Shown: one piece after another, positions 16,397 through 63,024 of the stretch
How positions within the stretch are numbered: position 1 is the stretch's first letter
Layout of the letters: each line of letters starts with the position of its first letter
Notes under the pieces: model-generated
What the model saw: the letters and a program-made list of their open reading frames with translations, nothing else
Told to the model about the DNA's origin: nothing
Databases searched by the model: none
Translations under genes and position numbers: made by a program
DNA from: Pholiota molesta
Taxonomy: Eukaryota > Basidiomycota > Agaricomycetes > Agaricales > Strophariaceae
Reading direction: 5' to 3'
NCBI GenBank assembly: GCA_014925825.1
Contig: JACGCK010000115.1
Coordinates: 1-64,000 of the forward strand
Length of the DNA: 64,000 nucleotides

Positions 16397-18812
16397 GACA
16401 GGATTATTATTCGACGCGACGGGACATGACATCCGACGATGGCATGGCTGCAGATGCAATTCGCACGCGGTTTTGGGATCGCGTGTGGTGGAATGGCCTA
16501 TCGCAAAGCATGACTGAAGTCGATGTGGATCCTGCACCTGAGAGGCGCGACTGCGAGTCGCGGGAGATTTCGTCGGCAGAGACTCGGACAACGCCAGCAT
16601 AAATATCTGTATCAGTAGGATGTATAGTATTGTCAGCGAGCCAGTGAATGTTGTACTAGTAGGAATTACTGACGAATTGTATTTTTCTAGTGTCATCGTT
16701 CTGTGAGCAAGTTTGAGTACGAGGTTGAGTTATCTGATTATGTAAGTTGGACGCTGTGTCTTGACGTGGGACCGGGACCCCATCAACTGGCCCAGCACCC
16801 CAGACTCGATGATGCGTCTCTCTGCTCGTTCTCTTATACTCACCCAGTGCCGTTCGGGCTCTCGCACCCTAATGACCCTATGGGCGTCCATAGACGTGGA
16901 TCGCTTTAAAGATCCAAACCCGCATTGGTATATTCATCCCATTCACTGCACTTTCTCAGCTTGAACAAGTCTAGATCAACCTTCACTTTGGGCGATTGAC
17001 GATGGTGTGTTGAATACGTCGATGAAGTCTGAAAAGAAACAGGTTGGGCCAGACAGCATCTCTCTATGTATGGTATTGGCTGGTGCGATGCCTGCGCTGA
17101 CCTCGAAGATCTGATCCATGACGACCGGGTGATGGTAGTGGTCAGCACTCCGAGTCCAATAGGCGCCAGGTTGTGCCGGCCATTCCACACTATGCGAGTG
17201 CTGTAGTCACCGATCTTGTCGCCTGTGTATTTCTGTAGGAGGCCGCGATGCAGGCCAGGCGAGGGCCCAGCGGTGGTCCGGGCGCAATCACTTCAAGGGG
17301 TTCATTTGTTACTCACTGGGAAACAGTGTCGGTGCTGGTTGAAGAGGCCGCTGCCAAAGGACTGCAGCGCCGTGCAAAGTGCACGAGCCGCAGGAAGGAG
17401 GGTGTGCATCGCTGGTCAAAGGCTGTGTTTCTGGGAGTGGTGCCTCCGACTCATCGCAGGGTGGTTGACCGTATCGTGGGCGCGAAGGGAGGATGGCCTG
17501 CGATGTTACTGATTAGTGTCGAAGTCTTTCTGCCCCTGGATGGTTGGTGGAAGTGATCGATTAGTTCGATTTCTGGGGTATGGCCGAGGTCATCTCATTT
17601 CCATGCGGTGTTCGTGTCGTCGATGCTCAGCGACGCAGTCTGGGTATTCATCCGCACCACCAGCCGTTCGCTGGTGCTGCCGCCGAAGCTGCCCCCGTAC
17701 GCCGTTCCCGTCTATCCAGTTCTCTTTCTTTCTCGATTTCACGTTCATCTTTGTCCGTTGGTTTCTCGTTTTCGTTTGTCCGCCTGTCTGTGTTACGTTT
17801 GCCACATCTACGTAGCCGGGCTCGGGCTATAGCTATGGCTATAGACATGGATATGGATATGGATGGCCATGGCTTCATCGGAGATCGCAACGATGACGAC
17901 TGCCCCGCATGCATGCGGCGAACTACAGTCCCATTTGGTCGATGCTCCTTCCTCTCCTCGGCCAACTATCCAATCCATTATCTATATTGCTATCTGTGTT
18001 TCTGCCTGCCTGCACGTACCGCCTTCACTGCCATTTCTTAGTCTCGGACCAGACTCTTCTAACCATCCCAATTCAGATGCGACGGTGTCAGAGTCTGGGC
18101 TACAACCAACTTTATTATCTGATCAACCGACAGCAGGATGGTTTGGTCCGAGACTAGACATTTCTTGCCAGTTTGTCTCTCCTCTGACATGGACATACGG
18201 GCATTCAGTTATATTGCCTGTCAATTGACTGTTGCCGAACGCCTGCGTATGGCTAGCGCTTATTTACTGACTAGCCGTTGGTGGATTTTGCGCGATCGCA
18301 TTTTCAAACTGGCTATGCGATCATCATTGCACTCTATGCCACATATAGACAGATCATCAGCCAACCTCAGTCAATCACTATGCATCTAAGTGAGCATGAA
18401 GATCGCGGGCTTTGCAATGATGGCGCGCATGCTCTCTCCCCTCCTCCACCACATCAATGACGCCGCCGCTACGATTCAGAATCTTTACCGAGTTCTGCCT
18501 CTGGATTTTTCTTCGTAACCCACAATCACATACACTAGCATGTTTGCCTCAGCTCTCAACCTACAATGACATCTAGCAAGAAACATATTATATACATTGG
18601 AATCAGAGGGCTATTACCTAGCACCTGGCATTCGAGTTCGTCGCCTACAACATTTCCATCTCAGTGCGCACTCGGATGCGAACCTGCCATGTCCGCTAAC
18701 ACAAGAATCTAACATATCTGTTGGTTAAACATGGCTGATAGACAGATAACGACGTACACATCAGGGTGATGGTTTCAAAATTCTAATTTATCGAAGCCAT
18801 TTTGTCCAAGGT
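16397..18812. other. repeat-rich intergenic region
   Basis: No gene called. 17560-18300 carries a copy of the dispersed family, and 17815-17872 a short tandem run (ggctat / ggatat units). The open frames at 17580-18041 and 17863-18228 lie inside repeat DNA and show no conserved motif. Confidence 0.45.
17585..18300. repeat. dispersed degenerate repeat, copy at 17.6 kb
   Basis: Shares ordered blocks with 26228-26760: atgctcagcgacgc/atgctcagtgatgc, cgttcgctggtgctgcc, ccccgtacgcc, gccgggctcgggct, gacatggatat..ggatatggatgg, catcggagatc, gacgactgccc, ctaccgtccca, gtcgatgctcc. About 70% identity by eye with indels. Both copies have the same orientation. Confidence 0.6.
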
Positions 18813-26227: not shown

Positions 26228-26960
26228 ATCGCCATCGGCTCCGTGCGAGCTTCATTCGCCCAATGCTCAGTGATGCGGCCTGGATGATCTCCAACAGTCG
26301 TTCGCCGGTGCTGCCTCCGTACCTTCTTCCGCGCCCTGTGTCCGTGCATTCATCCCAAGGCGCGTTAGTGCGTCTGGCTCTGTTTCCCCTCCCCTCATTT
26401 CCGTCTATCTATCTGGCTTTGGTGTCTTCATTGCATCTATACGGCGGGGGGCCCTAGCCCTGGACATGGATATAAATATGGATATGGATAGGCCTTGCAT
26501 CGGAGATCCTCTCGACGACGACTGCCCACCGTAAAGGTGGCTACCGTCCCAGTCGATCGATACTCCTAGGTTGTTCAAAATACGGAGCTCAATCCATTAT
26601 CCATGTTGTTATATGTCTGTCTGTATGCACGTACTGCATTCTTTATCATCATCCATCGATTTCGCTTTCGTAATATGGGCGTATGGGTGTTCGTATACTG
26701 TCTGACAATGGACTGCCGTTGAACAGCTCTCATGCGCGACGAGGGCTTGCCTCGACGCCCTGTTTACGTGCATTTATCCCTAGGCGCGCTCGTTTGCGCG
26801 GCGTGGCTGTAGTCGACCACACTATTCCACCGGTCCTTTGGCAAACAATATGTCTTACGGCCTTCGTAGTTGAGCGGTCATATCAGCAAAACTCAGAGAT
26901 TTGTGATCGATATTCTCTTCCAAATGTTAGTGTTCAATTGTTAATGACGAGCGTGAAATA
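26228..26960. repeat. dispersed degenerate repeat, copy at 26.2 kb
   Basis: Counterpart of 17585-18300, with the same block order including the ggatat run (26463-26490) and the catcggagatc / gacgactgccc pair. It occupies much of the 25876-26979 gene-free stretch. Confidence 0.6.
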
Positions 26961-26979
26961 TATATGATCGTAAGCACGA

Positions 26980-28045
26980 TCAAGGATTGGTATGAGTATT
27001 ATCTTCAGCAGCGACGAGCCCCAACGTCTCGTCGGGTGTAATCAAAACGTCCATTTTCCAATCGTGGTCGCCAACAGGGACATCTCCAGCGGCGAACAAT
27101 TGCTCGCGCAACCCCAAGCCCACTGTATATAATATGTTAGAGGAAGTTGGGATGGGTGCCGAGACGCCAAAAGCGCGCAGCAGAATTAAACGCACCCAGT
27201 AGTGGTTTTGGTCTGCCAGAAGCGACGTATGATGAGATGAAGCGGTCGTAATAGCCTTTTCCGTGCCCTAAGCGCGAAAGCGAGCGGTCGAAGGCGACAC
27301 CTGTGGAAGCAGAACACAAGGAGGAAAACGAGGTGTCACACAAAAGAACTCAGAAGAAAGAAAGAAATAAAGCTTACCTGGAACCAGGATCATATCTAAA
27401 TTGATTTCATGCGTGCCCTGGACTGGGTATCGAAAAACCCCCAAAAAAGGCAAGGTCACGCTCCCGCAAACCAGTAAGTGGAGAATAAAAGGTCCTTACC
27501 GCTAGGCCGCCTTTTCCCCTCCCAAAATGCGTCGGGTTCCTTGATGCCCCATGTGCCGCTGGGGAGCGAAGCAAGATCCTCGAAGGAGTACACGCGGAGG
27601 AGGTCCATAGCGCTGTCGGTCGCTTGGATCTTGGGCACGAAGAGCGTCTTCTCTGTACGGGTCGGGGGTGTGTGAGCACGCACGCTGGTTTTGGGACGCT
27701 CTTTGCTGTTATGATCATACATACCTAATTGGAGGATAGACTCCGCGATGGCTGTAGTGCGCGCTTCGCCCGATGGCATGCTCAAGTAACAACTTATCGT
27801 GGAACAGCGCTTGAAGGGCGGCAAAGCGAGCACGCGGGTGGTTATAGCGCGTGCTGCAGTGATCATAAACAAAATTTTAACACATAGGCATGTACATCTT
27901 TTCGTAAGTAAATTGAGATACAGAGAAAAAGCTTACATTGGTCCTCTAGAACCGCCGGCGACAGCTCGCTGAGTGTGGCCGCCACCGCCCTGCGCAGGCT
28001 CTTTTTCTGCGCTTTGAGAATCTGGGCCGCAGTGGCAGTGGCCAT
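26980..28045 (-). CDS. FAU1: 5-formyltetrahydrofolate cyclo-ligase (MTHFS)
   Basis: Six exons: 28045-27937, 27853-27725, 27652-27500, 27422-27378, 27300-27196 and 27122-26980. They total 684 bp (227 residues), all introns phase 1. The N-terminal AQKKSLRRAVAATL, the central EKTLFVPKIQ and the signature SLSRLGHGKGYYDRF (nucleotide/folate loop) identify the 5-FTHF cyclo-ligase family. This enzyme uses ATP to turn 5-formyl-THF into 5,10-methenyl-THF, recycling the storage form of one-carbon folate in cytosol or mitochondria. Length is normal for the family. No organelle signal is obvious. Yeast FAU1 is the named homolog; the symbol is by family. Confidence 0.93.
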
Positions 28046-29650
28046 GGTTGTGTTCGGGATTCTGACAATAAGAAGGTGTCTTCAGGTTCCTGGATTCCGG
28101 TGGATGCACGCGGTTGTTTCGTGCACGCGCTCGAACGACTCAGAGCGTCGAAAGGCCTGCCAACGCAGAAGAAGAGGCGTCTATATGTTAGGGCCTTCGC
28201 GAGTGTAAGTCCACCTTCGGTGGATGTGATGATCTGACTGTGACCTCAAGTTTTAAGTACGAAAGACATCACTGATCATGCGATCGGTACATGAGAAAAG
28301 TAGAAACGGCTCACTCTAAGTATGATGGATTGATGATGGTGGCAGGAAATGGAAATGAGCACGACTTTTGAGAGTGCTATTTACAGCGCCTGTTCGGGCC
28401 GCCCGCGGCAACGTCTGCCGCCACGGCTTGCTTCTACGCTGGGCAAACGCTGGGTGACGCCCGACGAGAGACTGATAGTAAAATCCAGGTTGAATTCTGG
28501 GGCCATGCTGAAAGTACTCATAAGCATCAGCGTGGAGATCTACTAGCACACTGATTTACTTCTGCAAATCCTTGAAGGAATCAGAACAGCTAAATGATGA
28601 TTAATCGAGACAATCCGGCCGCATAAGAATGAGAAGCGTAAATCTCTCAACAAATGCGAATCACGCTCTTGCTGATGGATTCTATACTAGCTTAGTAGAT
28701 CCTGACTGCTGCACAAGTCAAGCACAAGCATCGATAAAGATTACGATTATCGTCACAGAGTCACAGACTCTAATCAATCTCTATTCATATCTAGCTATAG
28801 GGAAGTCTTTCCCTTCCGGTTTGATTTCGCAAAAAAAATCTATTGAGATCTAGGTCATGGTACAGATAGCGAACCTAAAGGAAATCGGTCATTTTAATTT
28901 CCTAGGGTGGTGCACTATATCTGTGGTGCGCTTTGCGTTTTTGGACCCATGGATTTTGTCCTTAATTCTGATAAATTTGGAAGTTTTACCTGTCACAGCT
29001 ACTGAAAAACCGTGCAAGACTTGTCTCAACTTGGTTAGCTACATCACGTGTGATTACAGGAAAATTGGTGGCGTTCACACGGATCCCTGAAAGGAAATAG
29101 AAAGGAATCCCGTACATTCAACACGTCCAACGTTCTCCGCGGCCTCCAGGTCGTGCTTCCAGTCGCTACCACGCTTCAGGACCACCTTCAGAGTGCAACC
29201 TTCTGCGCAGTTACCCCTCGTTTCTCATGATCACCAGCCCGTGACGCGTGGGCGCATTGGAAGGTTGCACCAGCCAGTTTTTCCAACTCATGTTCGTCAG
29301 TTACTGCTATCACCTCCTCTTTTGTTCCCCTGACAGCGCGTCTGAATTTTCTCTTCAGGCGATATTTGATATACAGGAGATTAAGCATTGGACGGGTTCT
29401 TCCTCTCACATCTAGGTGAGAGACGGACGGGTCTTTTTTTGTCGTGTTATCGTCTTATCCTATCTGGCTCAATCGTTCAGATATAGCTGACGTCGGGCCT
29501 CGATCTTTGAACCTTGTTGGATGATTTTGTACAGGACGTTTCAAATTCACTGCACAACATACGTTCTTTCTCCGCCACGTAAGTGGAGATTGTTCCACTA
29601 TGATACTACATGGTCTTGACGATGCAGTGCGGCACCGTGTCTAGTTAAAA
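28046..29650. other. long spacer, no gene seen
   Basis: Includes the upstream region of the MTHFS gene and of the zinc-finger gene. Minus frames at 28316-28549 and 29188-29409 have no recognised motif. Very AT-rich around 28560-28900. Confidence 0.4.
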
Positions 29651-35949: not shown

Positions 35950-38900
35950 TTACCGGAACTGCTCCAGCCTGAGTTGCGCCTTGGAGAGTATTTCTACATC
36001 TTCCGCCGAAAACATGCTCGGTTTGGACCGCGGCGACACAGTCACGACCTCGTCCTCCTCTAAACCGTCAGACGACATCGTCAAATCCACGACCTGCCTT
36101 CCCTTCCCTTGCGTCGCATTACCTGCGCCTGCTCGACTCGTCTGCCTGACGGCGTCAAAGAACAACAAGCTGCGACGCGGTCTGCCTGCCTCCTTTGCCA
36201 CCCCACCGCGCGCCGAAACACCGCCAGCACCCTGCCCGCCGACGCTGAACTTGGGCGGCGCCGACCGCGGTGGTGCCTTCGCGAGCGCGTGGCGGCCGGC
36301 CGGCGTCACGTTCGTCTCGTCGCGCCTCAGCTGCACCGGCCGCGACCCCGGCGTCAGGCCCGTCCCGGACGCCCGCTCGCGCCGCCCACTGGGCGCGTTC
36401 GTCCGCGACGGCGCGGCGCCACCGAGCACGGGCGGGCTCCGCGCGGGCTGCGCGCCCGACTTCTTCCCAGCGGCCGGCGGCGCACGCGGCAGCGCCCACC
36501 GCTCGCGCCAGCCGCTCATCACCGCCTGCGCTCTGTCCGCGCCCGCCTTCGCGCGCTGCTCATCCTCGGTGCCCAGCTCCGCAAAGTCATCGACGTCTAT
36601 GACATCGATGACTCGTACGGGCTGTTGTATGTATGGCGCGGTGTCCGGCGTCTCTGGGGATGGGCTTGGAGGCGAGATGGAGCCCGACGTATCGGGGCCA
36701 TCAAAGTCGAGTTGATTCTCATCGAGGTCGAGCTCCGTCGCATCATCGCCTCCCAACATGCTCCGCAGATCCGGGCCGTGGTGGAAAGTGGGCGAAGGGA
36801 CGTTGTCTATGTCTGGGTAGATGCGGTTCTTGTGCGTCGTCGGCGTCGGCGTCGATCCGACAAGGTTGTCAGCGTTCTGACCGCCAGACGCGCTGTACCG
36901 CATAGGCGTTTGCAGTGGCCGTCTTCGGTCGAATGTCTTGGGGCGTTTAACGGAAATGGGGCTGGAGATGACGTCTGCGCCGAAGCTGTGTTCGTCCTCC
37001 TGCTCGTCGTCGCTTACGAGAACGCCGGTCTGTATATGGGCGGACACCTCGTCTTGCCGTCGACGTTTCTGACATCGAGCCCGAGACGATGATTGGCCGG
37101 GCTGCGGAGGGGAGGAGAGCTCCTGGGCTTCTTTCGAGTACGATGGCGATGGCGAGATGTACCCGTCCTCCTGTTCGACGACATCTGGGAACTCATCTGG
37201 GTCCAAATCCATCTCGTTTGCCCCCTTAGGATCGAAAATAGCGCGTAGAGAAACGTCGGAGGCGTCCAACTCTTCTTCCGAAGACTCTACAAGGTCGACA
37301 TAGTCCTCCTCCAGCGAAATGTTCTCCTTGTTCCGCACATCGTCCGACCGCGAGGGTCCAGCCACGGCAACACCGTCGCTGTGCCTGCGCTGGACACCGG
37401 AGGCGAAGAACTTGGACTGCGTAGCGCGGAGCGGGGAGTAGCTCTGGCGCGCTTTCTTCTTGCGGTCCATATCCTGGTCCATCACTTCAGCCAACGTGCG
37501 CTTCCCGCTGGCCTTGCCTGCGAGATTGGGCTTGGCAGCTGGGGGTGCTGGTGCGGGCGTTTTCTGCGTGGGTCGAGGAGGGATGATGGGGTTGGGGCCT
37601 GTGGAAGCGTAAGCAGGAATGGTCTATCGCAAAACAAAAAAAGTGAGATGCCGACCGAAGAAATTCATGATGCCCCCAGTTGGTTGTGCGCGTGGTCTGG
37701 ATGTTGGAGGAATTTCGCGCATCTTGCCTTTGGACATCAAAGATTTGATGGGACTGTTCGATACATGCACTAAAGGCTTGAGCGCGCGGGGCATAAATCC
37801 TTTGTTGATGTCTTGCATTGGCATATATGTGGCAGGATCAGCGTCTCCTAGCGCTATTTTCTTCGCCATAAGAGGATCCAGGTCGCTGAAGACCATCGTT
37901 AACATTTGTATATCGATCCAATAAATCAATAGAACGTACTTTCCAACGTAGGCGTCGAACTCGTCGTTCCAATCGTCGCCGACAGCAGTTAAATGCACTA
38001 GTCGCTCGGCATTGGGACAATAAACTCGTTGGTGCAAAAAGCACTTCTCCGCTAGTTGGAATAGCTCCCAGTAGCCTGGCGGAATCGACTTCTTTCCCTC
38101 CAGAGCGAGCGCTTTGACGACCTGTTGCGCACTCTTCCATTTGCGCAAAAGAGAGCACGCAGTTTTGAGGCCAATACCGGGTATGCTAGGGAGGTAATCG
38201 CAGCCGCTCAAAATACACATAGCGCGGAACTGTACGTCAGACCAGCCGAGGAGGGAAATGCCATTGGTATCTGTGGATGAGGCGGTGACAGAGCCGAAGT
38301 CTTTTCGTGATATAGATACCACCGTGTTCGCAACGGCATCCAGCTTGAGCAATACGTTCTGGCAGCCAAAGACGAGGAGGTCGGAGTCTTCGGTCAGGAC
38401 GGCGTCAACGATGCCCATGCGCTCGAGGTAGGCAAGTTGCGCGTCTGCTTCGTACGGTGCGACAACATATGAGACGGATTCTGCGCGCAGGGCCTTGATG
38501 AATTGGTATGCCATCTGCGGGGTAACGTCTATGCATTTGATGAAGCACTCTCGTGCCTGTGAGTGCTTGCCCTGCCGTTGGAATGCCTTCCCTCTGGCAA
38601 GGTTGTCCTCGCGCTTTTGCTTTCGCTCCTTTTCCGTGCCTTTCTTCGCTGGCAGAGGACCTCCGTCAAAGACGACGTATGGTTCAATCTTGTGATGGCG
38701 CAAGAGTCGGACGCGATGCATAGCGTAGTCTACATATCTATTGCAGTAAATGTCAGCGTCAGTCGGGTTGTCCAAATCCCCTATTGCGACTTCACTTACT
38801 TGTGGGTGTCCTTCCCCGTCGCTAGCTCCGTGGCGCATGAGTACACGCCTCTGTGCAGCCACACGTACGCATCCACCGCGACCGTTTTCCCAGAATATTC

Positions 38901-38960
38901 GGAGAGGTGCTTGGTGACCTGGATGGACTTGAGTGCTGTCAGTAAACCAGAAATGCCCAT
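35950..38960 (-). CDS. EXO1: exonuclease 1 (XPG/Rad2 family)
   Basis: Four exons: 38960-38800, 38737-37940, 37885-37656 and 37598-35950 (2838 bp, 945 residues). The start MGISGLLTALKSI is the family N-terminus. Metal-binding acidic residues are in place: Asp30 (VAVDAY), Asp78 (VVFDGG), Glu150/Asp152 (PYEADAQ), Asp171/Asp173 (LTEDSDLLVF) and Asp234 (LSGCDYLPSIPGIGLK, with the helix-two-turn-helix). It is a 5'-3' exonuclease and flap endonuclease in mismatch repair, end resection and meiotic recombination, acting in the nucleus. The C-terminal half is disordered. TQSKFF near the start of exon 4 resembles the MLH1-interacting (MIP) box of yeast Exo1; that is an inference. PIG-P is convergent with it. 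Confidence 0.96.
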
Positions 38961-39513
38961 ATTCTATGGGTGGGGCGACGTATGGGGCTGCAGACTGGGC
39001 AGCATAAAGGTATGAGAAACGGTGGGTTTTGCGATGGCTGGAATGAGCCCAAGCTTGGTACGCCGTTGTGACGTTTGTTTGAAGGAACAAACGCGTCGGT
39101 CACCTCACGTGGCATGTTATTAAAACAGTTGGCGCGGCGCGCGGCGCGCGCGTCGCCTCGCGTGAGCACATAGCGTTTGAAGACGATCCTAGGCACTGAC
39201 TAATTAGATGTGGGGGCTCAAAAAAACATAGGAAGTTATAAGAGGTTATCTCACCTTTACTGTTCGTCCTAAGGAGGCCAGCGACTCGGGCCGCTCTTTC
39301 CTTGGCAGATCATGTGTCTATTACGTGACTGTAGTGTCAGTGAGTCTTCTCCTGTCTTCTCATTCGATTTCCACCTCCGCAATCCGCATCGACTTGATTA
39401 TTTGCCCTAAGGTCTGTGGTCCGTTTAAATGGATTCCAGGGAGCTGATTTTGTCTATTATACTTCAAGACTTCAAGCACTCGAACACTGATATTCAGACT
39501 CGATCAAGCCTCG
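38961..39513. other. spacer between divergent EXO1 and F-box gene
   Basis: Contains a CG-rich palindromic patch near 39130-39165 (ggcgcggcgcgcggcgcgcgcgtcgcc) followed by AT-rich DNA. No gene seen. Confidence 0.4.
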
Positions 39514-41231: not shown

Positions 41232-42334
41232 TCAAGCAGAAAGCCACTTGTCGGACCAACGTCCTATCCAATACCGACAATTATTTTTGCGTAACTGCAG
41301 AGCTTCTTGGTCAAGGGTGCTAACTTCTAGCGTCCCAAGCCATTTCTGGTCTTCATCTACATCGATTATTTCGTCGAAGTGTAGCCCAACGCTCCGTCCC
41401 TTCTGGAGGAAGTTATCGCAAACATGGGCATGGGTATAGTTTCCGGCCTTCCAATTCGGTTGAAAGGGTAAATGGGTGCAGGAGTAGTATGGTATTGGAA
41501 AGCCTTACCCCTACGTAAACTCTTGCGTCCTCTCTTTTGACCAACAGCTTCTCGATAGAAGAAACAAGCACATCATGTGAATCAAAGAAGTGGAGGAGAT
41601 CTGATAGGATCACGATTTCGTATCCTGCCATTGATTTCGTTGAATCCGTCGGTTGCAAAAGATTTCTGTTACAATCATACTTTAGAAAGAGAGGAACATA
41701 TATAGAACGCGGCCGAACCAATTGCACTCACAAAAGCTTCGACGTGTCTGTTCCCCATTCATATCCTTCGCACTTGACAACACAGCCTTCGGTTATGGCA
41801 CTTCGATTTCTTTCAACATTCTTCTTCAGATTGCCCAGAATACCTTCATCTGGATAATCTGTGACCACGATGAGCGCTGGTGGATTGGGCTGTGTGCTCA
41901 GTAGGAGCGAAGGCAAGGCGCTGCCTGCACCCAGTTCGATAACTGGAAGACTTCATCGTCAATTGGAGCTCGCCAATTGATGTTAAATGACCTTACCTGT
42001 CCTCCCATTAACATCCAGCAAGTTTCGTTCGATCCGCTCCGCTAGGTAAAGTGCAGGAGAAAAGAGATGATCTGCCAATAAGGTGTTCGCCTTGGATTAT
42101 GCTTTAGGATCGACATCATAGATTGGCTGATACTGAGCGCACTTTGCCTTCCTAAAAATATTCGTAAAGAATTAGACGAGAGTCGAGTTTACAATGAGAG
42201 TGCATTACTTTCGGTGCCAGCGTCAATTGCAGAGGTCCATATCTAATGATGGTGTCGTCAATTACTGGCTTGCCTCCTAGGAACTCGAGGGCATCGCTGA
42301 GAATGTCCTCGTTATCTAGATCGACGGCGGACAT
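41232..42334 (-). CDS. EFM7: EFM7/Nnt1-like protein methyltransferase
   Basis: Six exons: 42334-42209, 42151-42143, 42090-41997, 41942-41732, 41665-41509 and 41447-41232 (813 bp, 270 residues). All phases fit. Exon 2 is a 9-bp microexon coding Glu-Gly-Lys. Motifs: LFSPALYLAERIE, the SAM-binding VIELGAGSALPSLLLS (motif I), acidic VVTDYPD (end of beta-2) and ILSDLLHF (motif post-II), then THAHVCDNFLQKG. These are the marks of the seven-beta-strand Methyltransf_16 group. The yeast member Efm7 (formerly Nnt1) methylates the N-terminus and a nearby lysine of elongation factor eEF1A. Nicotinamide methylation, the older name, is less likely. Length matches yeast. Confidence 0.88.
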
Positions 42335-42515
42335 GAGGGCAGAGTGTTGAAGATGACCGTGAAGATGGGACGAAATTGTTTGCGATTGTATAGGCTCGTC
42401 CCCATCCGGCTCCGCCTGGCCCGTGAAGCACGTGGCTTGTGAGAGTAAACTCGACAAGAGGCGTAGCCGGCTGGTACATTCCGGGCGTGTTTTGGCGGAG
42501 CCTGCCAAATCCATA

Positions 42516-42645
42516 GGAGGGCACTTAGTAAAAAAAGTCGCCCGAGGTCAAAAAAAAGTCTCAAAATTGAGTATATAAAAAGTGATTTATTTTGTATTTC
42601 AAGTCGATTAAAGTATACAAATATTTTTCGAAATTTTGAAAAGGA
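42516..42645. repeat. left terminal inverted repeat of the DUF6589/RecQ cassette
   Basis: Reading in from 42516: GAGGGcACTT, A7 GTcGCC, A8 GT, CTCAAAATTG, AGTATATAAAA, ATTTCAAG, AAATATTTTTCGAAATT. The reverse complement of 48752-48885 gives the same blocks in the same order: GAGGGtACTT, A8 GTgGCC, A7 GT, CTCAAATTG, GGTACACAAAA, ATTTCAA, AAATATTTTTTTTTCGAAATT. Identity is about 65-75% by eye with small indels. AAAT at 42507-42510 may be a target-site duplicate. Confidence 0.75.
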
Positions 42646-42735
42646 CTTCGTCGTTGTTGACAGGCCCGTGCGCGAGAAGCGACCTGTCAAGCTTTCGATC
42701 CACGCCTATGAGTATCCACGCAACCTCCCCCGTTC

Positions 42736-45700
42736 TCACACAAAATCGAACGCCCCATCCTCTTCATCACTCTCCTCGCTCATATCCTCATCGTCGTCCT
42801 CGCCAGAGTCCTCTTCCAGATCCCAGCCATCCATGTCCAATTCGACGTCATATTCGTCTATGCGTTCAAGTGTCGGTGATGCCATCAAGAACGCGTCGCT
42901 TGCGTCGAATTCAAGTTCAATCTCTTCTTGATCAGCCTCTCCAGCGCTTTCATCTGCATCGCGGGCTTCATTTGTTGGTAAGTCGTTGTGTTCCGAAGTG
43001 TTCCCTGCTGACAGTGATTTTTGTACAGTCTTCATGGCATCTACTTGCACATTTGTGGCTGGCAAACTAGGACTGCCAATGTCGTGTTCATTCTCGAAAA
43101 CTGCGGTAAGTTTTCTGCGCTCGCGCAGACGATCGAATTGTTCGTTGAATTCTGCTATAGGACTCGTTGATTTGCCATGTGCGAGCTGTGCCATTCCAAC
43201 AGATATCACGTCCGGAACCGCGCAATCCAGCTTGTCGACCTCGCGTCCGTTTATGACTTTGTAAACGGAATGATGTGCCAGGCTCGTCATCAGCGATGAT
43301 ATATCTTTTGAAAGGTCAGGAACCGTATGCTTAGACCCTTGTTCCATGCCCAGCTCATGGTTAATCTTGGTTGACAGTTTCCGCAATATATCCACGCATG
43401 GCGAGACAAGAGCTAACCAATCCCAGGAATGTGACCCGCCTTCGGCTTTATAGACACGCTGTGAAATTTATATTCGGTGAATCACTAGCTTGTTGTAGCT
43501 TAACAAAAAATCACTAACCTTGATCCAAAAATTTAGATGTTCTTGTACAAGATCAATCTCAACGAAGGCATTCTCTTTTCCTGTCGGATTGAGGAGCCAG
43601 TTCTGGGTGACCACCTTTCTGCACACATTGCAAAGAGTCAGCTCCTCATTCTGAATTCCAGGTATATGCGTACCGAATTTCCTTTGTCCAGACATTGACT
43701 AGATTATGAAATAGGTGAAGCATCTCATGGGCATATTTTGAACGCCCGTTTCCACGAAAACTGAAGACCCAATGTTTCAGGACTAGAATTACAAGCCCAG
43801 AGTCTCCCGACTTGACGGCATCTGCAAATAGTCGGGTGAGAAGTGCATCGCGTAAGAACAAGCAAGCATTCTCGAAGACCATGTCTCCTTGAAGCTCGAT
43901 GGGTAATGTGCTTTTTGCAGATGGTCCCTTGTCGTCGCTGACTTCATCTTCACAAATAGGCTGCGATCCAGCTGCCCGATTTTTGTTCTTTGTCTTCTTT
44001 TGCACCTCCGCGCGTCTCTCAGCCTCCAAGCGTGGCTCTCGAAGCTCTTGGACACGGTCCGCACTGGCAAACTTGGTGAGAATCTCTAAAGAGTGCTCCT
44101 TGATTTCGCTCCATGTTGTGACATTTTGTGCATACGACTCTAGCGAATCTTCCTCGGAGACCAATAATAGGCAATGAAGAATTCGCGCATAGAGGGAGAC
44201 CATTATCAAGTCCCTGCAGATCCGAAATGATGGTAACGATGTCAGCACAATCGGTAATCGTGTGAGGCAGGTATTGTGGAAGGCGAGGCTGCCGGGGCTC
44301 TGGTTCGACGAGACACCAAAATGCATGAGAAGTGTTCCGTGGGTATCTGCGATCTTCGTATGGAACAGTCCTGTCACTAAAACAAAGTTCTTCCACATCC
44401 CTAGTCCGACTTCATGCCCTAACCGAATGCCAGTGATCGCTCGTTGACGTGCGATTGTCAATTGATCGCCTGCGATGATTTGGAGATGTTTTCCACGTTC
44501 AGGATCATCGTTCGCCAACTTCAGTTCTGTATTAATTGCTTCAATGATTTCGATGTTTCCTTTGATGGTGTTCTCGTCGATTTCCATTGATGGCAATGGG
44601 TGTAAACTGGACTTGTGAACAGCAATCGCCTCGCGGCTTCTCGGTGCGTTTGTTACAAGATCTCCTTTCCATCGTTTCAATGACTCGCCTCCGTAGTGGA
44701 CAATGACAGACAAAATCGTGTGGACAAGTGCATCTTCCATGAGATGAGACTCGTTTTCAGTGAGTAGCAAGTTTTCGAGCTTCAGAGGAGGCGCATTCAT
44801 TATGCCGTTATCCAGATGTCTTGTTTCGATATCTTCAAGCTTTGCATTATATAAAGGAATGACGGTTGCACATGTACCATTTTCTTGTGCGTCTGTGTCA
44901 TAAATTAGTAAGTCTTTGCATGAATATAAATTATGAGCCCCACTTTTCCGTCCGAGAACTTGCTCGGCCACTCGTATCATCATATTTATGTTGTCATACA
45001 CGGTTATGAACAAACCTGTGGATGCAATGTTTCGTGCAGTGTCACGACATGCATGCGACAAAAGGTGCAGAGTTCCCGGTGACTGATCTTTCTTTCGTTT
45101 AGACGTGGATTGCGAACTTGGAGCTGCAACTACACTGTTGTATGACATGCTGATTCCAAGGGAGGAAAATACAGTGAAGTGCTGCCTCTGGGAGCCAGTA
45201 GCCATCAGGTATGTCCCAATGACTGCTTGAGCATAATTATTGGTTCGACTTCTGCTTCTCAATAGTGCAAGAATGGCCGATCCCCGAACCTATTTACGGA
45301 GGTAAGAATCTTCACACAGTATAAGATACATCATTGATTCAGACCAATTCCTGTTTATGCAGTGATTTCTCCTTCAGCTCCCGCAATTGTCGTTTTGTGG
45401 TTGAAAAGGCATCGAACAAAGTGAAAGCCGTAGGCGCCAGCTCACGAAGCTGTTTCGTAAGATCTTCAAGGCTATAGTCTAGGAAGAAGTGCTCATTGAC
45501 GGTCATTGATGTCTTGCGTAGAATCTTGGATTCAGAGATGGTTTTTGACTCGGCACGGACTATTGTTTCTGCTTGGCTGACAATCCAGTCCATAATAAAG
45601 GTACGTGTCGTTTTGTTGTATTCTGCTGTAGTCCAGTAGCTGAAGATTTCTTTAACAGTTTCCCGGTGTTGAAAGAAGCCGCGCCATTTCCAGTCGAAGA

Positions 45701-46265
45701 TGTGATGTGCCTTGGGTTTGAAAACATATTGAAGAAATTCGGCAAGTGTTATTCCCGCCTCTTGAAATACAGCAAGCACTTCATCAAATATCCTCTCTCG
45801 TGTGCGTTGTTTCTGCAGCTTTTCCCCTTCTTGCATTGTTGACTCTGTTTCTTTGTTTTTTGAATAGGTTTCAAGCCGCTTTTGAGTAATACGACTGCGC
45901 TGAAGTTTTCGTTCTGTTGTTGGTGTAAACATGATGCTGTCGCTCGAGGCCATTCGGTTTTGGAAGGGACTGGTGGGACTTGGGAGTGACGAGCTTCGTG
46001 GGCGGACTGGTGAATGATTATGACCACGAATTATAGAAGCGAGTGGGATATCATCGGAGGAGGGCGCTAGATAACGGTCCAGAGGTATATCATCCGAGGT
46101 AAGAAAGGGGTTTTCTTCTGTTACATCCTCTGAATTCTGATAATCATCTGTTCCCTCTTCAGGCGGGTCCGACGGAGGAAGATTTTCGAGATCCAGAGGA
46201 TCGTTATCTGAGGAAAATACCACTGGACGGCGAGAGTAAAGCAAGCCGCTGTAACGGACGGACAT
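42736..46265 (-). CDS. DUF6589-family protein, candidate element-encoded nuclease/transposase
   Basis: Four exons: 46265-45345, 45289-43674, 43618-43519 and 43458-42736 (3360 bp, 1119 residues, no frame break). The body matches the DUF6589 pattern expanded in Agaricomycetes: RGSAILALL..R near residue 310, VYDNINMM near 405, AGDQLT near 582, LVTGLFHTKIAD near 617, HEMLHLFHNL, then NWLLNPTGKENAFVE...LVQEHLNFWIK across two introns. The N-terminus is Ser/Asp-rich and disordered; the end is a long acidic tail (EDDDEDMSEESDEEDG). The spaced acidic/His motifs would suit a metal-dependent RNase H-like fold, but that is inference; no function is established as far as I know. It shares a 64-bp divergent promoter with the helicase, and both lie inside terminal inverted repeats. 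Confidence 0.85.
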
Positions 46266-46329
46266 CGATGTTTCGGTATGTGATTGTCTCGATCAGTTTT
46301 CCTTTTTTGTCTTTGTGTCTTACCACAAC
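46266..46329. promoter_or_regulatory. 64-bp divergent promoter region
   Basis: Only 64 bp separate the start codons of the DUF6589 gene (minus) and the helicase gene (plus). Any core promoter must serve both directions or overlap the coding regions. It contains a pyrimidine-rich run (cagttttccttttttgtctttgtgtcttacc) on the plus strand. Confidence 0.6.
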
Positions 46330-48737
46330 ATGCCAGCCACTTCCTCTCAACCGCCTAGAGGCACTCGCCACAAACTCAAAACACTCAGAAAGTCTGTCAA
46401 AAAATCTCTAGCTGAAAAGCTTGCAGCCCTCGAAAAAGAGCTTGAGCAGCTTCCAGGTCTTATCAAACACAAATTCAAGAAGTGGAAGAATGGAGCACGC
46501 GATTTCCAGCTTGCTTGTATGCGAGCTCAAGTCCTCCGAAGAGATGTTCTCCTGCAGGCAGCAACTGGTTCTGGGAAGACTGGGATTGCTGCCGGGCCGC
46601 ATCTTCTGCCTTCGAGCAAGGGCAAAGTAACATTGCTCGTATCGCCATTGTTGGCTCTTGAAGAGGAACAGGTATGTGTCTTCCAACTTGATTTACTCCT
46701 ACATACCTGACAGAAACGAAACACATTCAGGTAACCACGTTCAAAACCGAGTTTGGGCTTAAAGCGATCGCAATCAATAGCGAAAATGGTGGCTGCTCGC
46801 CATCTACAATGGCGGTAAGTATTTTTCTGTTGAATTTGAACATTGGCTAATCCTGATTTTCTAGCAAATTGTGGCTGGTGAATGGCAGATTGTGCTGTTA
46901 TCGCCTGAATTGCTGACCGGACGCAAGTTCATCGACCAAGTCCTTCGAAAACCGGCTTTCGGCCCTCGTTGCCTGTCAATTTTTATTGACGAAGCACACT
47001 GCATTTCACACTGGGGCGCATCTTTTCGCAAGGCGTACAGCTCTATTGGAATTGTCAGAGCATTTCTACCGCGAGATGTGCCTATCATCGCAGTGACAGC
47101 AACACTTACACCACTCGTCAAATATGATCTACTCAGCAAACTGCAATTTGACCGTACTCAATACCTTTTCGTCAATATTGGGAATGATCGTCCCAACGTT
47201 TCTCAAGTGGTCCGTGCGATGGAACATCCCGCGAACACCTTCCACGACCTTGACTTTCTTATTCCGACCACAATCTCGTCACCAGCTGATATACCAAAAG
47301 GGTTCCTCTACTCCGATGACATCAAGGCCGGCTCTTTGATAACAGATTATCTGAACAATCGTGTCGACACCCAGTACCGCGAGCTCGGACTTATACGTCC
47401 ATACAATGCAACAATGTCCAAGATATACCGCAAGCAGGTCATGAAGTTGTTTCGAGATGGAAAGATTCGCATTCTTGTTTGTACAGATGCAGCAGGCATG
47501 GTATGTAGCTACTTTCCAATTCATATTATGATACTTATTGTTTTCTTCCTACAAGGGCTGTGATTTTCCTGACATCGACATCGTAGTTCAATGGAAAGTC
47601 CCTGACACGTTGTCTTCGTGGGTCCAGCGGGCTGGCCGGGCTGCACGTGGAATTGGCCGTCAAGGACTTGCTGTGATGATCGTTGAAAAACCCGCGTTCG
47701 AAATTGCAGCATTTCCCCAGCAGTTGGATCCCCATCATAGTCAAGGAAGGGGACGTGGACGAGGACGAGGACGTGGATATGGGGCAGCTTTGCAGGGCCA
47801 TGCTCATGGCCATGTGGCAGTCTCGAAACATGGTGTCGAGTATGCAATTGCCCATGGGCTGAAGCGCGGGATGTCGGGCGGGAAGCATGATGAAAAATTG
47901 AGTCTTGACGAAACACATATCTCATCAGATATGCTCCGGAATGCTAAAGGTGAAGGTATATATCTTTATATTCAAACGACCCATTGTCGGCGGCAAGTTT
48001 TGCATACTGTATTTGAAAATACGCCATCAAGTAAGTGGGTTGACTCTATTCTGGGAAATATATTGACATGCTACGAAGATATCGACCCATTGCTATGCTG
48101 TGATCTGTGCAATGCAAAGTTATTCAACCAAGTTCGCCCCAGTCCACCTCAACAGATCACACGCCAACATGCTCCCCGACGTGTTGCACCTGTTGATTCA
48201 GTCCGGACGGCACTTTATGGATGGCGGCGCCAAATGAAAACGACATATTGGCCACGCGGCCTTTGGGCGCCACAAGGAATTCTCAACGACGAAACTTGCG
48301 AGCTACTGTCGTCAATTGGACCAGTGGAATCTCAGGAGGCTTTGGCATTGGTTCTCGAGGGTAGTTGGGAATGGTGGGACAAGTTGGGAAGTGAGTTATA
48401 TTCCTTTCTTCATTCCTGCGAGATCCCTTCTCTGCCACCACGGGTCTCAAGAGGAGTCAAACGGCATCCTTTGCAAGAAGATCAAGGCTGTGGCCCCTCA
48501 ACATCCGAAAGCTCGCCGACGAAACGGTCTCGCACATCAAATCAGACCAGCAATCCACCAGCTCTCTCGCAACCTATATTTTTGGCACCTTCAGCACTGT
48601 CAAGTGCCTCAAATACCGTCCAGGCAATAGGAAGTTCTCGAAGACGACGAGGAAAGGAAGCAGTCACAGTGTCATTCCCACCGTCATCATACGATACATT
48701 CTTTTCTCAACTTAGTACCAGTGCTCCGGCGAAGTAG
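46330..48737 (+). CDS. RecQ-like DNA helicase
   Basis: Four exons: 46330-46671, 46731-46814, 46865-47500 and 47556-48737 (2244 bp, 747 residues, no frame break). Motifs in order: Gln before motif I (ARDFQLACMRAQVL), Walker A ATGSGKT (78-84), LLVSPLLALEEEQ, DEAH box IDEAHCISHWG (184-187, the RecQ-style extension), VTATLTP, LVCTDAAGMGCDFPDID (motif V) and SWVQRAGRAARG (motif VI). An RG array (GRGRGRGRGRGYG) and a CDLCN pair follow, and the C-terminus is Ser/Pro-rich. It should be an ATP-driven 3'-5' DNA helicase. It is shorter than cellular RecQ helicases and has no evident HRDC domain. Placement next to DUF6589 inside inverted repeats suggests an element gene. A telomere-linked RecQ relative is an alternative. 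Confidence 0.9.
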
Positions 48738-48751
48738 TCTGTAAAAGTACA

Positions 48752-48885
48752 AGTCAATTTCGAAAAAAAAATATTTTTTTAAACCATCTCATTGAAATCT
48801 ACGAGTGAAAAAAACCATCTTTTGTGTACCCAATTTGAGCACTTTTTTTCATGTTGTGGCCACTTTTTTTTGATGAAGTACCCTC
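48752..48885. repeat. right terminal inverted repeat of the DUF6589/RecQ cassette
   Basis: Inverted counterpart of 42516-42645, beginning 15 bp after the helicase stop and ending CCCTC at 48885. It is followed by gtatg and then AAAT (48890-48893), the same 4 bp found just outside the left repeat. Polypurine/polypyrimidine runs make the ends AT-rich and slippage-prone. Confidence 0.75.
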
Positions 48886-50247
48886 GTATGAAATGGCGGG
48901 GAAATCAGCTATCACCAGAAATAGCCCCGGAATGGCCCAGTCCGCTCGCGAGCTCGCCCCCTTCTTGTCATGTGCTCCTGTCACTCTCTCTGTGACTAGA
49001 GCTCGCGAGTGTGACTGGCTGGCGAGTCTAGCGATTGTATCAACCACAAGGCGTTGAACTATGTCACATGTGTGTTTGACAATGATGACCGCGACCCCGG
49101 AGCCTTCTTCTCGACTTCCATGATCTATCTCAGCACCTCCTGAAACTTCTATCCCTATGGGACTTTCGGAAATCGATCAAGGATGAGTGAATATTTGAAC
49201 CTCCAGTCTATGAATCATCCGGCGCTTTTGCGCAGGGCCCAGGCGTCTCATCAATTCAAAAGAATCTGGTTGGAACTTGGCAATACCAACTCCAAGCCTT
49301 TCGACAGGCGCAGTCTCGCATATCACTACACTTTCAAGCTTCTGCCTCTCCGAACCACCCACTAAATGCTCCCTACACTCGATACCCTCACGGCTGTATC
49401 TTTGTCTACATGCCTACGCGGTTTCTAGATTTGCAAGCCCACCTAAGTTCTCTGTATCTGATACTGCACGTCAAGATAAGACTTTCTGTGCCAAGGAAGT
49501 CCTGAACTCCTGCTCATGACCAAGGTTCTGTTGATATTCAGACCTTGGTTCCCTCGATTCAAAGTTGCCTGGCGACAGTTGACGACTCGGCCCGCACACA
49601 ACAGCACTAAGCGCTGGATATTATCATCTTGTTTGATCCTGTTGGACCTTTGTTCACGAGGCTGATCCAAGAAACGTCCGTGGTGTCCAGCTGTGCCCGG
49701 TTTATTCACTCAATGCTAGGCTCTCCTGAAAATTTAGATGTTCTTCATTGACAACCAAATTTACGCCAATTTCTGATTCGATTTCACCTCCACGTTCAGT
49801 GGTTGTAAGATATCCCGCGTTCAATACTCTAAAGCTTCTCTACCATTTCACAATGAACACCACTGCCCGTTTCTAAAGGTGGTTTTCGTCAGGCGTCAAT
49901 CCATCAACAGAGTCCGTACATCGGTCTCCGCCAAGGCTGCCCAGCGCCGTCCTATACTTGTACGTACGTAGTCCCGCCAAGCGGCCAAGTTCTGGCCTGC
50001 ATATTTCAGGGACTGATAAAAAGCGGCTCCTCATGTCGACAACGCCCATTCCCTTCTGTTCTTCCCTTGCTCCGGACTCTTGCTGACTTAGGGTTGATTA
50101 CCTGAGTTTTTTAGTTTGTTTTTATAGGCGCCAGCTTCGCCTCATTTTTTATTTTCGTTCTAACTGTCTTCCTTTCTTTTGCCTACTCTTTCACTCTCAC
50201 TAACACTCTCCTTATTCGCGGATTGTTTCTCTCTTTTCGTTTTGAAA
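48886..50247. other. spacer with possible decayed coding remnants
   Basis: From about 49190 to 49506 a plus frame is open with protein-like composition but no start (EPPVYESSGAFAQGPG; YPHGCIFVYMPTRF), and after its stop another stretch reads DIIILFDPVGPLFTRLIQE in the same region. No family recognised; probably a relic. The 50050-50247 segment is pyrimidine-rich and is the likely promoter/5' UTR of the carbonic anhydrase gene. Confidence 0.35.
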
Positions 50248-60086: not shown

Positions 60087-61080
60087 ACGGGGAGAGCCCA
60101 GGGGAGAGCCAGCGGGTCGGGAGCTGGGAACGGAGCGAGGGCCACATGAAGGCGAGAAGAGAGCTGGAGTGTCCTATCGGGGGGCGTATCGATGTACAGC
60201 TTGTAAGCGTCGCTGCGCCAACGCCCCAGTAGTTGGATTTCGTAATCGTTGTATCCTACTGTAGCCGCTGAAGTAGCCGCGCCGCGACGGAAGCTGTGGC
60301 CAGAGTATAAGGAGTGATCCAGATTGAGGGACGCGAGACGGGTTTTTAAGAGGGATATGAAGGGATCTCGGGAGAGCGCCTTTCCGGAGGCGTCACGGAA
60401 AAGAGGAGCTAATGGATTGGGTTCGGGCCACCGCTGGATGTAATGCTGCATCGCAAGAACTGGGCAAGTTAACGCGGCATCGGCGGGCGCGCGCGCAATC
60501 AAAATCGTGGTGCCGGTACGGAAGGGGTCGGTCTTCGATCCAGGGAGAGAGAGGCGCATGTGCGTGGGCTGGTTAAAGGAAGGGATGAACTCGATGGAAG
60601 AGCGCGAGAGATGGATAGTGGAGTTGAAATTGGAGGCATTAGGGACAGTAAATTCGCCGCAGCGTAGAAAACCAGCCCAAGCTAATTTAATTGCAGCATC
60701 AAAGACAGCATTTTCGAACAAGAATACATCACCTGAAATGCGCGCTAAGCTTTGGAGAATCGCGAGCGTGATGGGGAGCTTGGGTTTGCGAGCTGTTCCG
60801 TAAATGGCTTTGATACCGCGGTAAATTCGCTGCAAGGTGGGAGAATAGCAGGACGCGGCTGAGAGACCAGCATCGACGTGGAGGGAACGAACACTGGAGA
60901 GGTAGCTTTTAATTGTGGAGTGCTTGAGACCCCGATCTGCGAGGAACGAGATCCACTCAGCGAGTGCAGTAGTGGTGGCAGGGAGGACGAGGCCGGGTTC
61001 AGACTGGAGGGAGGGATTAACTGCGATAAAATCGAGGAAGGATCGTTGGCCAGATCCGTATGTTTTGCGGGTACTAGACG
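60080..61080 (-). CDS. tyrosine recombinase of the DIRS-like element
   Basis: The frame is open from about 61080 to the stop at 60080. The N-terminal core-binding part (STRKTYGSGQRSFLDF, then HSTIKSYLSSVRSLHVDAG) lies upstream of the first ATG at 60835 and overlaps the end of the RT ORF in another frame. The catalytic domain carries FLRCGEF (first Arg region), SGHSFRRGAATSA (H-x-x-R) and LGRWRSDAYKLYI with the nucleophilic Tyr. It would integrate a circular cDNA by site-specific recombination. It probably needs frameshifting or a non-AUG start for full length. Confidence 0.88.
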
Positions 61081-62883
61081 CGAGACCATGCCAGAGGTAG
61101 AAGGCGGTTCGACGAGAGAAGTGAGCATGTGTTTGATACCAATAATCTGGGACTTCGTTGATGAGGAGATTCTTCCGAGCGTCGGATCCAGCTGGAAGAG
61201 CTTCGAGTACTGGAAACGGGAGGCAGCGTCAGCGAAACAATTTTCTTCGGAAGGAATCCAGACAACGGAAAAGGTAAAATTCAGCGCCGCCGCCATCATA
61301 GGAATTAGCCGCACGAGACGCATAGAAAGTGGGGACCGACAGGTGCCCGAGGATAGCCAAGCGACCACAGCTTGATTATCACAGTGAAATTTAATGTGCC
61401 GGCCTCGCCAGCTATCAGCCCAGCAGAGGATCGCATGCAGGATCGCGTAGATTTCCTTGAACTGGATATCACGGAGACGGAAACGGCGCGGAACACGTGC
61501 TGAGAACCAAGCCTGACCGGAGAAGCCGCCAAGACCTTTTGATCCGCTCGCATCAGTGTAGATCGAGATCTCGTCACGCTGATCCGTCAGAACCCTGACA
61601 CCGTTCCAAGGACGGCTAAAGATAGTCCACCAGCGAAGATCAGCGCGCACCCCGGAGGGAACATGGAGGCGCTGGAAGGGAGATGCAAACTTCATTGAGA
61701 AATCAATGATGCGACGGATGAATGGGCGAGAGCGAGGGATAACCTGAGATGCAAACTGCAAGAATCCGCACAGCTCCTGGACTTCACGAAGAGACGCGCG
61801 GCACTTAGACGACCATGAGGATAGAAGCTCGATGAGGTAAGAGAGCTTGTCTGTGGGTAGACGCGCTTCCATGGAAATCGAGTCAAGTTCGAGTCCGAGG
61901 AACTCGAGACATGTAGTCGGCCATTCCGTTTTCGAATCTTGGAAGCAGAGGCCGAGATTCTGGCCGAGGCCCATTACCCAGTGAACAGCTTGGGTGGGGA
62001 GCTCGGAGCCAAGCGCAGGTGAAAATAGGAGGAAGAAATCGTCAAGGAAATGACGCAAATGGGCAGGAATATGGCGTTGAATTATCCAATGAAGAGCCTC
62101 GGAAAAGAGGTTAAAAATGTAAGGCGCAGACCTGAGACCAAAGGTCAAGACAATGCAGTAATAAAACTTGCGACGCCAGGAAAAACCCATGTGATGCCAG
62201 TCCTCTGGACGGATCGGGACATGACGAAAAGCTTCTTTCAAGTCAAGCTTCGCCATCAAGGAACCGGGACCCGAACGAATGAGATCTTCCACCGCGCGCT
62301 CAAACATATCATAAGATATGAAAGCCTCGGAGTCTGGAATACCGTCGTTAACAGATAGCCCACGCGGCCACGAAAGGTGGTTGATAAGCCGGCGCTTATC
62401 AGGATTGCGCTTCCGCGTCACTGAACCTAAAGGTGAACAGCGAAAAGACGCTAAGGGAGGGGCGTTGAATGGCCCGTGGACTTGGGATTTGGCACACAAA
62501 CTAGCCACCGCCTCGTCCATAAATTCAGGCTGCTCAAGCGCTGAGGGCAGATTCCGACTCGGACGAATGACTTCGGGACCGGCAAATCCAATATTCGCAC
62601 CAAAACGCATAATATTGATCAGCGAGAGTACAAATTGGCGGTCGGGATACTCTGCCAAGTAGTGTTCCCACGCTTTGGGCACCAAGGGGGTAGAGACTCG
62701 AGGTGTAGTTGGGGAAGGAGAATGAGAATGTATAGTATCAAGGGAAAGATTAGGGGATAGGGTAGATATGGAATTACAACGAGGGTTTGAGTTGGGACGG
62801 GGAGGAGGAAGGGTGAAAGAAGGAGGAAATAGGTGAGAGTAAGGTAAAATGGAAGGGACAAAGGTAGAAGAAAGGGAAGACAA
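60745..62883 (-). CDS. reverse transcriptase-RNase H of the DIRS-like element
   Basis: 712 codons. After a Pro/Ser-rich start, RT blocks appear: RRLINHLSWPRG, LMAKLDLKEAFRHVPI (first catalytic Asp), FGLRSAPYIFN and HFLDDFFLLF (FLDD in place of YxDD). The RNase H part has IYTDASGSKGLGG, FKEIYAILHAI, FHCDNQAVVAWL and ENCFADAASR, giving the D-E-D-D set. The last 110 codons overlap the recombinase in a different frame and look poorly constrained (Ser/Pro-rich). No protease or DDE integrase is present, as expected for DIRS elements. Confidence 0.92.
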   Translation of the reverse strand: MSSLSSTFVPSILPYSHLFPPSFTLPPPRPNSNPRCNSISTLSPNLSLDTIHSHSPSPTTPRVSTPLVPKAWEHYLAEYPDRQFVLSLINIMRFGANIGFAGPEVIRPSRNLPSALEQPEFMDEAVASLCAKSQVHGPFNAPPLASFRCSPLGSVTRKRNPDKRRLINHLSWPRGLSVNDGIPDSEAFISYDMFERAVEDLIRSGPGSLMAKLDLKEAFRHVPIRPEDWHHMGFSWRRKFYYCIVLTFGLRSAPYIFNLFSEALHWIIQRHIPAHLRHFLDDFFLLFSPALGSELPTQAVHWVMGLGQNLGLCFQDSKTEWPTTCLEFLGLELDSISMEARLPTDKLSYLIELLSSWSSKCRASLREVQELCGFLQFASQVIPRSRPFIRRIIDFSMKFASPFQRLHVPSGVRADLRWWTIFSRPWNGVRVLTDQRDEISIYTDASGSKGLGGFSGQAWFSARVPRRFRLRDIQFKEIYAILHAILCWADSWRGRHIKFHCDNQAVVAWLSSGTCRSPLSMRLVRLIPMMAAALNFTFSVVWIPSEENCFADAASRFQYSKLFQLDPTLGRISSSTKSQIIGIKHMLTSLVEPPSTSGMVSRLVPAKHTDLANDPSSILSQLIPPSSLNPASSSLPPLLHSLSGSRSSQIGVSSTPQLKATSPVFVPSTSMLVSQPRPAILPPCSEFTAVSKPFTEQLANPSSPSRSRFSKA

Positions 62884-63024
62884 GGAAAAATGGGGTGAGG
62901 GAGAAGAAATAGGTAGTGGAACAGGTGAAGTAGTAGAGATATTAAAAGAGGAAAGGCTCGAGCGAGCTGAAGAATCAAAATTGGAAGAAGAATAAATAAA
63001 TTGGGGGCTCGCTCTACCGAGTCC

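Follow-up and report, generated by a model that had tools for sequence, protein, structure and literature searches.

Two divergent genes of the agaric Pholiota molesta (Agaricales, Agaricomycetes), one coding for a DUF6589 protein and the other for a RecQ-family helicase, raise the question of whether they are host genes or the cargo of a mobile element and, if the latter, of which kind. The pair lies in a window of 64,000 nucleotides, the whole stretch of DNA analyzed here, which is part of contig C19 (150,857 bases) of a 65.6 Mb assembly of 625 contigs. We found that both genes are contained in a complete transposon of 6,640 bp (42391-49030; 5'-TAGGCTCG...CGAGTCTA-3'), which very probably is intact and belongs to the AcademH type of DNA (class II) transposons, the AcademH label being drawn from its features and not from an Academ reference sequence.

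Ends, target duplications and empty site

The ends of the element were fixed from the copies on C25, C13, C322, C430, C456 and C618, their target-site duplications (TSDs) and an empty site. Its left end has six other matches in the genome and its right end five; pattern searches recover eight exact left ends, the window included, of which seven are paired with a right end, and perfect 9-bp direct repeats lie outside 7 of the 7 two-ended copies. These TSDs are of varied sequence, namely GCGATTGTA in the window (left copy 42382-42390, right copy 49031-49039, identical to each other), GATATATTT on C25, TAGATATCT on C13, TTCTTCTAC on C322, CAACTAATA on C430, CGACATAGT on C456 and CAAGAATCC on C618. 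The eighth left end, on C53, is without a right end, and one-ended near matches occur on C14, C378 and C334:74345. A further full-length copy, of 6,638 bp, lies on C25 and shares 68-81% DNA identity with the window element in three blocks. Synonymous divergence (dS) by NG86 came out as -1 in 12 of 12 comparisons, which we took as saturation, and codon-position differences were therefore taken, for the C25 pair only. The short non-coding copies, such as those of 746-758 bp on C13, C322 and C430, have the same outer ends as the window element. The outer ~70 bp of each end seem to be the cis-acting part, because the C618 copy, at 141 bp, consists of the outer ends only.

The terminal inverted repeats are imperfect and about 270-290 bp long (left, plus strand, 42391-42663; right, minus strand, 48739-49030, the latter common to other copies), and their local alignment scores 69, where 300 dinucleotide shuffles reach at most 26.5. 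The initial annotation had recognized inverted repeats at 42516-42645 and 48752-48885, which the full repeats enclose and which surpass the shuffled sequences in their own right (46.5 versus a maximum of 26.5, again in 300 dinucleotide shuffles). It had also ended the inverted similarity at GAGGG and taken the AAAT outside as a 4-bp target duplication; these ends are rejected because the copies share sequence outside them and because the 141-bp copy, which lacks those repeats, has a perfect 9-bp TSD. The inverted similarity in fact runs outward to 42391 and 49030, conservation among the aligned genomic copies reaches 5'-TAGGCTCGTCCCC at the left end and 5'-TAGACTCGC at the right end, and the termini of the element read TAGRCTCG. 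The multiple copies and the empty site that the initial annotation had proposed to look for are present, with a duplication of 9 bp in place of the expected 4 bp at GAGGG. A hairpin-like TTTGGC..GCCAAA at 42491-42509, which overlaps the AAAT, lies in the left inverted repeat and is found slightly changed in other copies.

The sole place in the genome that matches both 1-kb flanks is on C285 (left 26767-27767, right 27759-28751), where the two matches overlap by 9 bp; this overlap, C285:27759-27767, is a single GCGATTGTA in the context ...AAATTGTTT GCGATTGTA TCAACCAC..., and ~3 kb of flank aligns to C285 on either side (96.8% and 95.5%). This is the predicted pre-insertion (empty) site. We read C285 as the other haplotype; it may also be a segmental duplication, and with either origin the window and C285 copies differ at the site by this one insertion. 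When the flanks are joined without the element, one frame of 71 aa crosses the junction, with no clear interrupted gene. Part of the left flank (154 bp, 41885-42038) recurs with 96-97% identity at C45:18784-18937 and C201:1947-2099.

The DUF6589 protein and its helicase partner

The putative transposase gene occupies 42736-46265 of the minus strand, with predicted exons at 46265-45345, 45289-43674, 43618-43519 and 43458-42736 (1119 aa), and matches Pfam DUF6589 (PF20231) on one exon with an E-value of 7.3e-94. The RecQ-family superfamily 2 (SF2) helicase gene lies on the plus strand at 46330-48737 (exons 46330-46671, 46731-46814, 46865-47500 and 47556-48737; 747 aa) and matches the Pfam DEAD and Helicase_C domains. 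Both genes are open under the spliced models and start divergently at 46265 and 46330, such that the identities and the arrangement given in the initial annotation hold; the 64-bp gap between the start codons (46266-46329) is, from its position, presumed to be a bidirectional promoter. The database models of the two genes, P0001 (DUF6589, 961 aa) and P0074 (helicase, 731 aa), differ from ours mainly by predicted introns.

The predicted structure of P0001 has an RNase H-like fold, whose best structural matches are Hermes, the P element, Tn5, ISCth4 and RAG1, absences from this fold search carrying no weight as evidence. The closest solved fold is that of Hermes, a hAT transposase, and the predicted RNase H core of P0001 has a helical insertion ahead of its last glutamate; Hermes likewise has an insertion in its RNase H core. 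The two aspartates and the glutamate (D, D, E; proposed to be D302, D461 and E714 in P0001 numbering) are conserved, and a C/DxxH motif between the second D and the E is found in at most 2 of 45 aligned sequences at any column. At E <= 0.01, DUF6589 is the one Pfam family that P0001 matches, MULE being absent, and P0074 matches the WRN helicase (E 1.1e-29). We consider it likely from the predicted fold and these residues that the DUF6589 protein is a DDE transposase with predicted catalytic activity. DUF6589 was not found in the literature searched, where PF20231 occurs only in one unrelated optics paper, and among the matches listed (73; best 120 of 138) no name, these often being incomplete, calls the protein a transposase. 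Its identity as a transposase is seemingly previously unannotated.

The partnership of the two genes extends across the genome. The 14 control genomes have no match to PF20231, and this genome has at least 61 exon matches, grouped into at least 36 loci. Of the 36 loci, 34 have a helicase match no more than 6 kb away, where ~0.34 would be expected under independent positions; C135 and C223 are without a helicase match. All 34 pairs are on opposite strands, but in two layouts: the window's group, with 8 pairs, is head-to-head, whereas the other 26 are tail-to-tail. Conversely, DUF6589 matches are missing at 12 helicase loci (best E 6e-12). In other Agaricomycetes, 25 of 73 DUF6589 proteins (P0001 included) are on a contig equal in size to that of a listed helicase match, the helicase side comprising the best 120 of 1,544 matches, of which 119 entered; the smallest such contigs have 7,141, 8,132 and 22,502 bases. 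The profile search with DUF6589 returned Agaricomycete matches and reached no animal relatives among its best 120 of 138 matches.

Nested and dispersed DUF6589 elements

An element of 6,019 bp interrupts the miniature copy of the window family on C456 at position 658 and displaces the right end of that copy; the intact miniature copies provide the empty site for this second insertion. The nested element has ~200-bp inverted repeats that are 97.5% identical, is flanked by a 9-bp duplication of miniature-copy sequence (TCAGCCCAG) and, after a one-base boundary shift, has the termini TAGACC...GGCCTA. It encodes a DUF6589 protein (PF20231, E 2.6e-75), only about 23-25% identical to that of the window, and a helicase (DEAD, 1.3e-8; the Helicase_C match, at 0.0034, is under Pfam's cut-off).

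A motif-free scan, in which perfect 9-mers next to inverted ends were sought at DUF6589 loci, delineated elements at C180:20099-26616, C257:99167-105148 (C257a), C257:119637-126101 (C257b), C136:45398-51232, C46:399140-404658, C603:128651-134163, C334:153787-159529 and C147:59089-64831, and 8 of these 8 begin with TAG. In a control of 200 random window placements, the best score was 12 of 20 inverted matches, reached in 10 of the 200; C136, C46 and C603 (20 each) and C180 (15) exceed it. The window element is outside the top six of 3,098 9-mer pairs because its whole 64 kb was scanned, and its ends rest on the TSDs of the two-ended copies. An element on C55 (40046-50507; 10,462 bp, ~4 kb longer than the others) was missed because its left end was outside the stretch first scanned; it has TAGTCTCGaACCAAAC at 40046, TAGTCTCGGACCAAAC inverted at 50507 and the TSD CAAACAGAG outside both ends. 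In sum, both ends and a perfect 9-bp TSD are present at 12 of the 15 coding DUF6589 loci examined, out of 36.

The scan scores of C257a and C257b (12), C334 and C147 (10) and C25 (8) are not above the control; no complete end pair with a TSD was recovered at C40, whose left end is a tandem doublet and whose right end is at 31001, at C36 (left end at 16023) or at C613 (left end at 158309); and C240:7487-7675 has both motif ends without matching 9-mers. The elements that score within the control therefore rest on other evidence: C257a and C257b represent one element inserted with identical ends at two places, each with its own TSD; C334 and C147, whose TSDs likewise differ, are 98.7% identical across exactly the inferred 5,743 bp; and the ends of C25 are exactly those of the window family. 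The two C257 copies have 0 mismatches over 5,982 aligned columns (3 gap positions), and one of them is without 486 bp inside the helicase gene (C257:121885-122370 of the other copy); judged from these sequences, the pair is a very recent transposition.

On C400 (131837-139809), two DUF6589/helicase pairs in inverted orientation, with equal best profile scores and ~500 bp between the helicase matches, are possibly a palindromic duplication. Within the window, a 118-bp miniature element at 18039-18156 has inverted TAGTCTCGGACCA termini, which match the ends of the C55 element, and the outside 9-mers GCCATTTCT/GACATTTCT with one mismatch. Against it, this one-mismatch pattern occurs in the genome no more often than its backward control (9+5 versus 9+9), and the entire element finds just two relatives there, both weak and partial.

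Probable relationship to AcademH and proposed mechanism

AcademH is a lineage of the Academ superfamily that reportedly goes back to Kojima in 2020, and the nuclease of its counterpart AcademX is of the XPG type. The window element is labeled AcademH because its putative transposase and helicase, 9-bp TSDs and fungal host fit that lineage: like AcademH, it has a helicase, here of the RecQ family, beside a predicted DDE-type transposase (34 of 36 loci are paired), a TSD of 9 bp (9 or 10 in AcademH), a predicted RNase H-like fold with conserved D, D, E residues that would fit a DDD/E transposase, and a basidiomycete host. The two are compared by features only, and it is the Pfam DUF6589 protein that we propose as transposase. 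AcademX, by hypothesis of the same superfamily, has a nuclease instead of the helicase and a TSD of 3-4 bp as against 9 bp in the window. Published accounts give a TSD of 9 or 10 bp for AcademH and of 3 or 4 bp for AcademX and tie the difference to helicase versus nuclease (PMC10045372), place AcademH in Basidiomycota, Ascomycota and Mucoromycota (PMC10799480), describe it as low-copy in Basidiomycota (PMC10045372, PMC10799480) and report putative non-autonomous Academ elements from the mushroom Marasmius oreades (PMC8290104). Academ, helicase, TSD and 9 bp all go unmentioned in PMC9674265. The statement of the initial annotation that no element with this gene pair is described gives way to these helicase-encoding Academ transposons with 9-10-bp TSDs (PMC10045372). 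What this analysis seems to add is the assignment of the transposase role to DUF6589, the recognition of two gene layouts, and a clean series of copies, miniature copies and an empty site.

The alternative that survives best is that the element represents an unrecognized superfamily of DDE transposons that carry a RecQ-family helicase, and that its DUF6589 transposase is unrelated to those of Academ. The feature-based nature of the comparison and the silence of the literature and of the listed names on DUF6589 leave it some room, but we regard it as unlikely given the helicase, 9-bp TSD, DDE-type fold and fungal host that are shared with AcademH. It is likewise doubtful that the DUF6589-RecQ elements form a DDE superfamily of their own, marked by a RecQ-like partner that is nearly obligate, by two opposite architectures, by very recent activity and by unwinding-dependent transposition; we know of no eukaryotic cut-and-paste element for which dependence on helicase unwinding is established.

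Kolobok elements target TTAA, and hAT elements are not known to carry a helicase. Membership in KolobokH, hAT or MULE, better-known superfamilies with a RecQ helicase or similar TSDs, is very improbable, and these were rejected on the TSD and the C/DxxH motif: the TSDs here are varied 9-bp sequences, neither TTAA nor the usual 8 bp of hAT, the motif is absent, and the only Pfam match of P0001 (E <= 0.01) is DUF6589, with none to MULE. In their favor, KolobokH is a fungal DNA transposon that encodes a RecQ helicase and is found only in fungi, although with the helicase downstream of the transposase domain (PMC9587614); hAT provides the closest fold, Hermes, with the helical insertion before the last E; and the 9-bp TSD falls within the 4-10 bp of MuDR and IS256 (PMC10045372). 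The hAT TSD is usually 8 bp, with groups of 5, 6 and 7 bp (PMC12730594), and both hAT and Kolobok have the C/DxxH motif (PMC9587614), which is expected of MULE/MuDR as well.

That these are two host genes, or a segmental duplication lying by chance between repeats, finds some support in the database names of both proteins (hypothetical or P-loop NTPase) and is scarcely tenable against the precise empty site, which refutes it unless C285 is an artifact, the 9-bp TSDs of all two-ended family copies, miniature ones included, and the C334/C147 match, which ends exactly at the inferred termini with differing TSDs. The proposal of an autonomous DNA element in the initial annotation is thereby upheld by the copies with perfect TSDs and the empty homologous site, with further backing from the transposase-like predicted fold and the conserved gene pair. 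Helitron was set aside on the terminal inverted repeats, the 9-bp TSD and a protein of the RecQ family, not of the Rep/Pif1 type.

We infer that the two proteins mobilize the element. The DUF6589 DDE transposase would bind the long inverted repeats, excise the element via its conserved D-D-E triad on the RNase H fold and insert it into target DNA at positions staggered by 9 bp, from which host repair would make the TSD. The RecQ-family helicase would be a co-factor, most likely one that either unwinds the transposon ends or aids repair or copying at the donor gap, and mobilization of the non-coding copies would occur in trans. Accordingly, the function we propose for Pfam DUF6589, listed as 'hypothetical protein' in many mushroom genomes, is that of a DDE transposase. 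If this is true, most of the ~36 DUF6589 loci here would be transposons or their remains and not host genes, the RecQ-like helicases beside 34 of them would likewise belong to transposons, and the numbers of RecQ and 'TE-host fusion' helicases counted in fungi, where TE denotes transposable element, may be too high. The intact element with its empty site, the 141-bp copy and the C257 pair make the role of a helicase in cut-and-paste transposition directly testable.

Elsewhere in the window, an XPG-family nuclease gene at 37627-39099 (XPG_I, E 4e-22), outside the element and ~3.3 kb from it, is probably a host gene, and an open frame near the right window edge (60748-63024), with an RVT_1 reverse transcriptase match and a weaker RVT_3 match, is probably a retroelement.

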